Source: Paracoccaceae bacterium (GTDB taxonomy: Bacteria > Pseudomonadota > Alphaproteobacteria > Rhodobacterales > Rhodobacteraceae). Taken from it: a stretch of 64,000 nt of DNA. Position numbers and translations under genes: made by a program. The first letter of the stretch is position 1; each line of letters starts with the position of its first letter. Below the pieces are notes generated by a model, which had not been told where the DNA came from, did no database searches, and saw nothing but the letters and a program-made list of their open reading frames with translations. The stretch is taken from the NCBI GenBank assembly GCA_027489375.1, contig JAIXZW010000003.1, forward strand, positions 186,001 through 250,000. The letters are read 5' to 3'. Of this stretch, positions 25,836 through 26,516 are shown one piece after another.

Positions 25836-26474
25836 ATGGACCGTGTTCTGCCCGATTTCGCCTATGAAACCGCCGCCTACGGGCGCGGGTTGCTGGTCGT
25901 GGCGGGGGTGGACGAGGTCGGGCGCGGGCCGCTCGCGGGGCCGGTGACGGCGGCGGCGGTGGTGTTGCACCGCGACCGCATCCCCAAGGGGCTGAACGAT
26001 TCCAAGGCGCTGACGCCGGCGCGGCGCGAGGCGCTGTTTGCCGAGATCATGGAGGTGGCCGAGGTCTGCTGCGCCCATGCGAGCGTTCAGGAGATCGACA
26101 GCCTGAACATCCTGCGGGCGAGCCATCTGGCGATGGAGCGGGCTGTGGCGGGGCTGGCGCGGGCGGTGGATCATGCGCTGATCGACGGCAACATGATCCC
26201 GCGCGGGCTGGCCTGCGGGGCCGAAGCGATCGTCAAGGGCGATGCGCTTTGCCTGTCGATTGCCGCCGCGTCGATCGTGGCCAAGGTGACACGCGACCGG
26301 ATCATGGTGGATTTGGCGCAACAGCACCCCGGCTACGGCTGGGAAGGGAACGCGGGATACCCGACGAAAGCGCATCTGGAGGCGCTTCTAAATCTTGGTG
26401 TGACCCCACATCATAGGCGTTCGTTTCGGCCCGTGCACAACATCTTGTATCAAGACGTTTCTGTAAGTGCTTGA
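25836..26474 (+). CDS. rnhB: Ribonuclease HII
   Basis: 212 residues. Removes RNA from RNA-DNA hybrids and initiates ribonucleotide excision. The [12 protein letters not shown] motif (catalytic Asp-Glu, about 27-38), [12 protein letters not shown] (Asp near 113), [22 protein letters not shown] (Asp near 131) and [10 protein letters not shown] are all typical. Its stop lies immediately before the GANTC cluster that precedes ccrM; the pair rnhB-ccrM is common in alphaproteobacteria. Confidence 0.95.
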
Positions 26475-26516
26475 TTCAAAAAAGAATTTGACGGCGAATC
26501 GCCACTGACTCATCTT
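26473..26516 (+). promoter_or_regulatory. ccrM promoter region with three GANTC sites
   Basis: GATTC at 26473, GAATC at 26496 (inside the palindrome GGCGAATCGCC) and GACTC at 26507 fall within 39 bases, where about 0.1 would be expected by chance. TTGACG at 26488 with CATCTT 17 bases on is a plausible promoter, and two of the sites lie between its boxes. GANTC is the sequence CcrM itself methylates, so the arrangement predicts methylation-dependent autocontrol. Confidence 0.6.

Follow-up and report, generated by a model that had tools for sequence, protein, structure and literature searches.

Some DNA methyltransferases are self-regulated, with target sites of the enzyme in its own promoter. 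For promoters with methylated GANTC sites the known reader is GcrA, which works together with the sigma70 RNA polymerase. In Caulobacter crescentus, the two GANTC sites that have been studied at ccrM reportedly lie downstream of the promoter. Methylation acts "most probably" on Caulobacter ccrM (PMC3973325); in one model CtrA drives the gene, which is expressed in the hemimethylated state only (PMC2217572), and its promoter contains a CtrA site, TTAA-N7-CTAA (PMC3751295). GcrA covers positions -35 to +7 of the fully methylated ctrA P1 promoter (PMC3667746), binds sigma domain 2, and raises both the affinity of RNA polymerase and open-complex formation (PMC7403470). Caulobacter promoters whose GANTC falls in the stretch from -35 to -10 become active at 40-60 min, when those with a GANTC elsewhere are lowest, but only 31% of the GcrA-bound cell-cycle transcription starts of this species have a GANTC within 50 bp (PMC4287350).

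Outside Caulobacter, the control of CcrM levels seems to have been little studied. For Rhodobacterales, one paper reasons from the promoter of ctrA that expression may depend little on changes in methylation (PMC8116508). Brilli et al. counted GANTC in 500-bp windows and, in the portion consulted, drew no conclusion on control (PMC2877005); the consulted portions of PMC3885167 and PMC11514494 hold nothing on control of the ccrM promoter. The literature that we searched, which mostly leaves out subscription journals and was seen in part, yielded no description of a conserved three-site ccrM promoter, a weak negative. We describe such a promoter from a Paracoccaceae bacterium, within a stretch of 64,000 nucleotides (C17:186001-250000) that we call the window.

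Three GANTC sites in the ccrM promoter

Upstream of ccrM, GANTC occurs at 26473-26477 (GATTC, site 1), 26496-26500 (GAATC, site 2) and 26507-26511 (GACTC, site 3), a span of 39 bases. The initial annotation had claimed three sites within 39 bases at this place, as is borne out, and across the 64-kb window this is the sole GANTC triple within 39 bp. GANTC as such is avoided, with 80 occurrences in the window against 264 in dinucleotide shuffles, and avoidance has been reported for alphaproteobacterial genomes (PMC3973325). The chance expectation of about 0.1 that had been given for the triple is close to the 0.07 per 64 kb calculated from the number of GANTC actually present; the number in shuffles would lead one to expect 2.4, and by composition alone the cluster is unremarkable. 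The triple is remarkable because GANTC is avoided and, above all, because the arrangement is conserved, as composition alone is insufficient. It is real and conserved, and no accident.

All features in this paragraph lie on the forward strand. Site 1 includes the final two bases of the stop codon TGA (26472-26474) of rnhB (25836-26474), the upstream neighbour, which encodes ribonuclease HII, and lies 10 bp upstream of a -35 hexamer, TTGACG (26488-26493). The A/T-rich tract between them (26478-26487) may be UP-element-like; at each of its positions 26478-26483, between 57 and 78 of the 79 relatives described below have an A. A -10 hexamer, CATCTT (26511-26516), follows after a 17-bp spacer, and the promoter had thus been called correctly. 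Two sites had been placed between the hexamers; of these, only site 2 falls entirely within the spacer, and site 3 straddles the spacer and the -10, its last C being the first base of the hexamer. Transcription probably starts at 26524, the eighth base past the -10 (A in 70 of 79 relatives). The leader contains a hairpin (26529-26546) and a ribosome-binding site, GAGGCA (26553-26558), of which GAGGC is invariant in 36 aligned leaders, and leads into ccrM (26563-27687), which encodes a DNA adenine methyltransferase of 374 residues and has an in-frame ATG at 26551 as an alternative start.

The initial annotation had further set one site inside a palindrome, GGCGAATCGCC. The palindrome is present in the window; considered as a binding site, in this form (N being A or T) it occurs in 8 of 80 promoters, the window included, and so is not conserved and is therefore incidental.

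Conservation in close relatives

We took 80 loci by close CcrM identity, mostly from Rhodobacteraceae, of which 79 include the upstream region (L037 begins at the gene); these relatives share ancestry and hence do not make 79 independent tests. At least three sites occur in the promoters of 62 of the 79 (three in 61, four in one), and fewer in the other 17 (two in 13, one in three, none in one). The locus with none (L042, Loktanella fryxellensis) has ccrM and a promoter segment free of any GANTC. Spacing between the sites is 23 and 11 bp in 54 relatives, 22 and 11 bp in four, 24 and 11 bp in two and different in 19. Persistence of both sites and spacing in relatives had been named as the check on the original observation; both persist in most of the 79 and, less strictly, in 28 of the 68 other families described below, and the outcome named as refuting, absence from close relatives, did not arise.

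In the alignment columns, 66 of 79 relatives have an intact site 1 (two further copies, in L068 and L076, are displaced by one base), 75 an intact site 2 and 70 an intact site 3. The N of site 1 is nearly fixed (T in 75, A in four). At sites 2 and 3 the bases G, A, T and C hold though N varies (A62 T13 G3 C1 at site 2; C59 A16 T2 G2 at site 3) and the bases between the sites are nearly free. The flanks of sites 1 and 3 are also conserved, with T at 26472 and at 26506 in 76 of 79 each, A at 26478 in 75 and A at 26512 in all 79. The promoter has what is expected of a sigma70 promoter, namely a -35 and a -10 hexamer, both conserved and set 16-18 bp apart: 77 of 79 relatives have TTGAC, all have both A 26512 and T 26516, and the spacer of the window is 17 bp. 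The 550,392 bases of these loci contain a single additional triple within 45 bp, in L072.

A TAA lies upstream of site 1 at 26464-26466, as also in L142, L147 and L160, and its A 26465 is present in 79 of 79 relatives. Some other families have TTAACC, and TAAC or TAAG stands upstream in 18 of the 46 family representatives with site 1. This TAA may be a CtrA half-site or may reflect a coding constraint on rnhB.

Directly after the ccrM -10, a DnaA-box-like TTATCCACA (on either strand) or TGTGGACAA occurs in 14 of 80 promoters, that of the window not among them. The TTATCCACA-type box is found in L004, L012, L014, L022, L024-L026, L050, L061 and L075, and a near match in L034, L041, L045 and L066. 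We rejected the DnaA box as a general part of the promoter; at 14 of 80, with none in the window, it is a lineage feature only.

The gene and its genome setting

The product of the gene is homologous to CcrM over its full length, matching the CcrMI structure PDB 6pbd at E 9.7e-172 (query residues 16-365). Against the NCBIfam equivalog NF050803 it scores 642.6 bits over positions 2-350 of 350 and does not reach the cut-off of 830 bits, which weakens the name CcrM and not the homology; the name of the model suggests that the cut-off was set for Caulobacter. The genome itself, in 22 contigs and rated 94.6% complete, encodes GcrA (C12:252104-252706; 159.9 bits against a cut-off of 26.9).

The dnaA C-terminal domain lies on the forward strand at 3081-3287 (C17:189081-189287), about 23 kb from ccrM, and the cumulative GC skew rises from one end of the window to the other; ccrM is therefore probably ori-proximal, as it is in Rhodobacterales generally (PMC8116508). 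Just upstream of dnaA, the segment 900-2700 holds nine GANTC in 1.8 kb against about two at the window's density, and is a possible origin region.

We found no CtrA box (TTAA-N7-TTAA, up to two mismatches) between 25118 and 27818, and the number of CtrA-like boxes in the whole window, 24, matches the 23.9 expected. A CtrA-controlled promoter of the Caulobacter type was rejected, as no box stands near even with two mismatches allowed.

Confinement to ccrM and form across the class

From 78 promoters (the window and 77 of the 79 relatives, leaving out L035 and L042) we built a sequence-only model, R1. With E values up to 5 allowed, R1 matches the genome of the window once, at the ccrM promoter. 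Across 385 genomes of the class, 59 match at E up to 0.01. Among the best 30 matches, our own included, tblastn placed ccrM beside 28 (all save L099 and L112). Six of 31 weaker matches were compared with ccrM positions, and five lay within 140 bases and one did not. Some of the weaker matches are chance, because two genomes (G005 and G008) have an R1 match at E below 0.01 yet no CcrM at E up to 1e-40, the threshold at which CcrM was found in 281 of the 385. As far as R1 sees, the promoter element is confined to ccrM.

For the form of the element beyond the family we examined 68 representatives, one genome per family other than our own, hand-picked among the matches listed, a non-exhaustive choice that favours better CcrM scores. 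Each contributed 470 bases around the ccrM start (355 in L166), 450 of them upstream. At least three sites within 45 bp occur in 37 of 68, against 1.0 of 68 in shuffles; TTGAC is present in 62, and a GANTC stands 5-20 nt upstream of TTGAC in 46, against 1.7 in shuffles. A strict core, TTGAC-GANTC-GANTC-A, occurs in 28 of 68 and is missing from 40, against 0.0 of 68 in shuffles. The distance from TTGAC to the CcrM match downstream is 42-159 bases in 27 of the 28 cores and 374 bases in L189, whose core may belong to another gene.

Within the 28 cores, site 3 keeps its distance from TTGAC (14 nt in 26 cores, 15 nt in two), while site 2 follows TTGAC at 2, 3, 4 or 5 nt in 2, 13, 5 and 8 cores, respectively. 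That site 2 shifts register yet stays GANTC while its partners are fixed points to selection acting on the GANTC motif itself.

Occurrence with and without GcrA

A GANTC in or beside the core promoter and a gcrA gene in the genome are two marks of GcrA/CcrM-dependent promoters, and both are found here. Within the class, GcrA (PF07750) was detected in 245 of 385 genomes, in 241 of them above the cut-off. Among the 68 representatives, in a table read by eye, 54 have a GcrA match (G001 at E 2.5e-4 only) and 14 have none; at E up to 10, eight of these 14 show weak matches, none above the cut-off, the best being at E 0.001 in a genome (G336) where it has internal stops.

The element does not track GcrA among the 68 family representatives. 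Of the 54 with GcrA, 29 have three or more sites and 22 the strict core; of the 14 without detectable GcrA, 8 have three or more sites and 6 the strict core, so that co-occurrence was dropped as support for a reading by GcrA. Since the core is as frequent without detectable GcrA, this comparison speaks against a strict requirement for it, with the reservation that a divergent GcrA could hide one.

Hairpins in the leader and the first codons

Between the -10 and the ribosome-binding site, most of the relatives have a short hairpin (G-A-stem-loop-stem-C) in which an A is usually bulged; in the window it takes the form GA-CGGC-CACAAGA-GCCG-C (G, bulged A, stem CGGC, loop CACAAGA, stem GCCG, C). 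The G-A-stem-C form occurs in 48 of 68 distinct single-length leaders, a count that excludes leaders with the ribosome-binding site past 45 nt, against 1.67 in shuffles. Pairing is full in 47 of 59 GA-anchored leaders, against 15.0 when the downstream halves are swapped, and the mean folding z-score of 74 distinct leaders is -1.48. Alignment A3, which was fitted by a model and leans to the structure, takes in 86 matches, of which 11 lie outside the ccrM leader. All six pairs vary on both sides somewhere in it, as they do in 60 of 500 shuffles; its covariation of 0.262 exceeds the 0.087 of shuffles and the values for slid partners, none of which is above 0.066.

The hairpin model R2 misses the window's own copy at E up to 10; a search for the hairpin elsewhere in our genome gave five weak matches, the best at E 0.06 and none at ccrM. 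Rfam had no match over 26300-26800 up to E 5, and a literature search on the leader hairpin found nothing. By eye, L061 apparently has three copies, and L069 and L080 have two. Also by eye, a second hairpin seems to be present in the first ccrM codons of the window (26577-26603, AGCGG/CCGCT) and of relatives, in which case the start codon would have a hairpin on either side.

Discussion

The three-site promoter suggests that CcrM's marks control CcrM's own production. The reading that we hold with moderate confidence is that the ccrM promoter senses its own methylation, probably via GcrA, and would thereby couple the enzyme to replication. Its setting is a conserved sigma70 promoter with three predicted CcrM targets, all of which CcrM would methylate: the first lies upstream of the -35, the second is in the spacer, and the third is fused to the -10. 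Passage of the replication fork, early if the origin lies by dnaA, would leave the promoter hemimethylated until CcrM restores methylation. If RNA polymerase activity at this promoter follows the methylation state, CcrM synthesis would be coupled both to replication and to its own success. GcrA bound to the sigma70 RNA polymerase would be the most likely reader, and we rate it as the probable one. As to sign, activity in the hemimethylated state with shut-off at full methylation is slightly favoured over the opposite.

The marks could also be read without GcrA, if N6-methyladenine in the spacer or near the -10 altered binding or melting by the sigma70 RNA polymerase, directly or through some other protein, in a simple negative or positive feedback. 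The full core is present in 6 of the 14 representatives with CcrM but without detectable GcrA, a share similar to 22 of 54, in genomes rated 92-100% complete, and site 3 forms part of the -10; yet PF07750 may overlook a divergent GcrA, our genome does encode GcrA, and site 1, outside the core promoter, is unneeded for a purely direct effect. We regard this reading as unlikely, though deserving real weight. A promoter blind to methylation, in which TGANTCA-like sites bind a methylation-indifferent protein or simply make a good core promoter and the match to GANTC is secondary, would agree with the conserved T and A that flank sites 1 and 3, the overlap of site 3 with the -10 and the A-tract that site 1 adjoins. 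Such a promoter seems distinctly improbable, as the flanks of site 2 differ, its N varies and its register shifts across the class, and as these are three targets of the gene's own enzyme that R1 finds, within our genome, at ccrM only.

Clustered methylase sites under a regulator are a usual basis of hypomethylation switches. A bound protein might keep the three sites unmethylated for part of the cycle or in part of the population, giving a slow epigenetic state, and local hypomethylation is on record in alphaproteobacteria (PMC5172544). In the stretches that separate the sites, however, the alignment of 79 relatives shows no other conspicuously conserved motif, and we consider such protection very improbable. 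Chance or shared ancestry without function could draw on the expectation from shuffles (2.4 triples per 64 kb) and on the relatives not being independent, but it is close to refuted, for in other families the element is still found next to ccrM genes that are 59-70% identical, with registers shifted and neighbouring bases free.

A promoter that senses methylation, as we favour, would matter in two respects. A conserved three-site promoter on ccrM near dnaA is a concrete point at which methylation could feed back on the Rhodobacterales cell cycle. The element is also kept where no GcrA is detected, and so offers a natural test of whether the marks can be read in the absence of the known reader. 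We further offer, as a speculation that is more doubtful than not, that the triple-site core is the ancestral alphaproteobacterial ccrM promoter and the CtrA-driven form of Caulobacter came later; that it would work as a thermostat in which the polymerase senses the marks and GcrA is an optional amplifier; and that the leader hairpin adds RNA-level control in Rhodobacteraceae.

With the Caulobacter crescentus ccrM promoter, the locus shares the gene, GANTC in the promoter region and, probably, a dependence of transcription on the methylation state; it differs in that the sites lie in and just upstream of a sigma70 core with no CtrA box nearby. The initial annotation had leaned on Caulobacter, and the analogy stands in so far as there is a CcrM homologue, GcrA is encoded and the sites are kept; it is looser than claimed, because Caulobacter ccrM is CtrA-driven and no CtrA box is present here. 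The GcrA/CcrM-dependent promoters of ctrA (P1), mipZ and ftsZ resemble the locus in having GANTC in or beside a sigma70 promoter in a genome that encodes GcrA. Multiple sites are exceptional there, however, with more than one GANTC within 50 bp in 11 of 96 GANTC-bearing Caulobacter cell-cycle promoters (PMC4287350), whereas here the gene of the methylase itself has three, and their spacing is nearly fixed. In self-regulated methyltransferases, too, the enzyme's targets lie in its own promoter, and the locus would differ from them in being probably tied to replication, through an ori-proximal gene and a dedicated sigma cofactor. As a GANTC-bearing cell-cycle promoter, then, the ccrM promoter is ordinary in kind; it is unusual in its arrangement, in the depth of its conservation and in its target.
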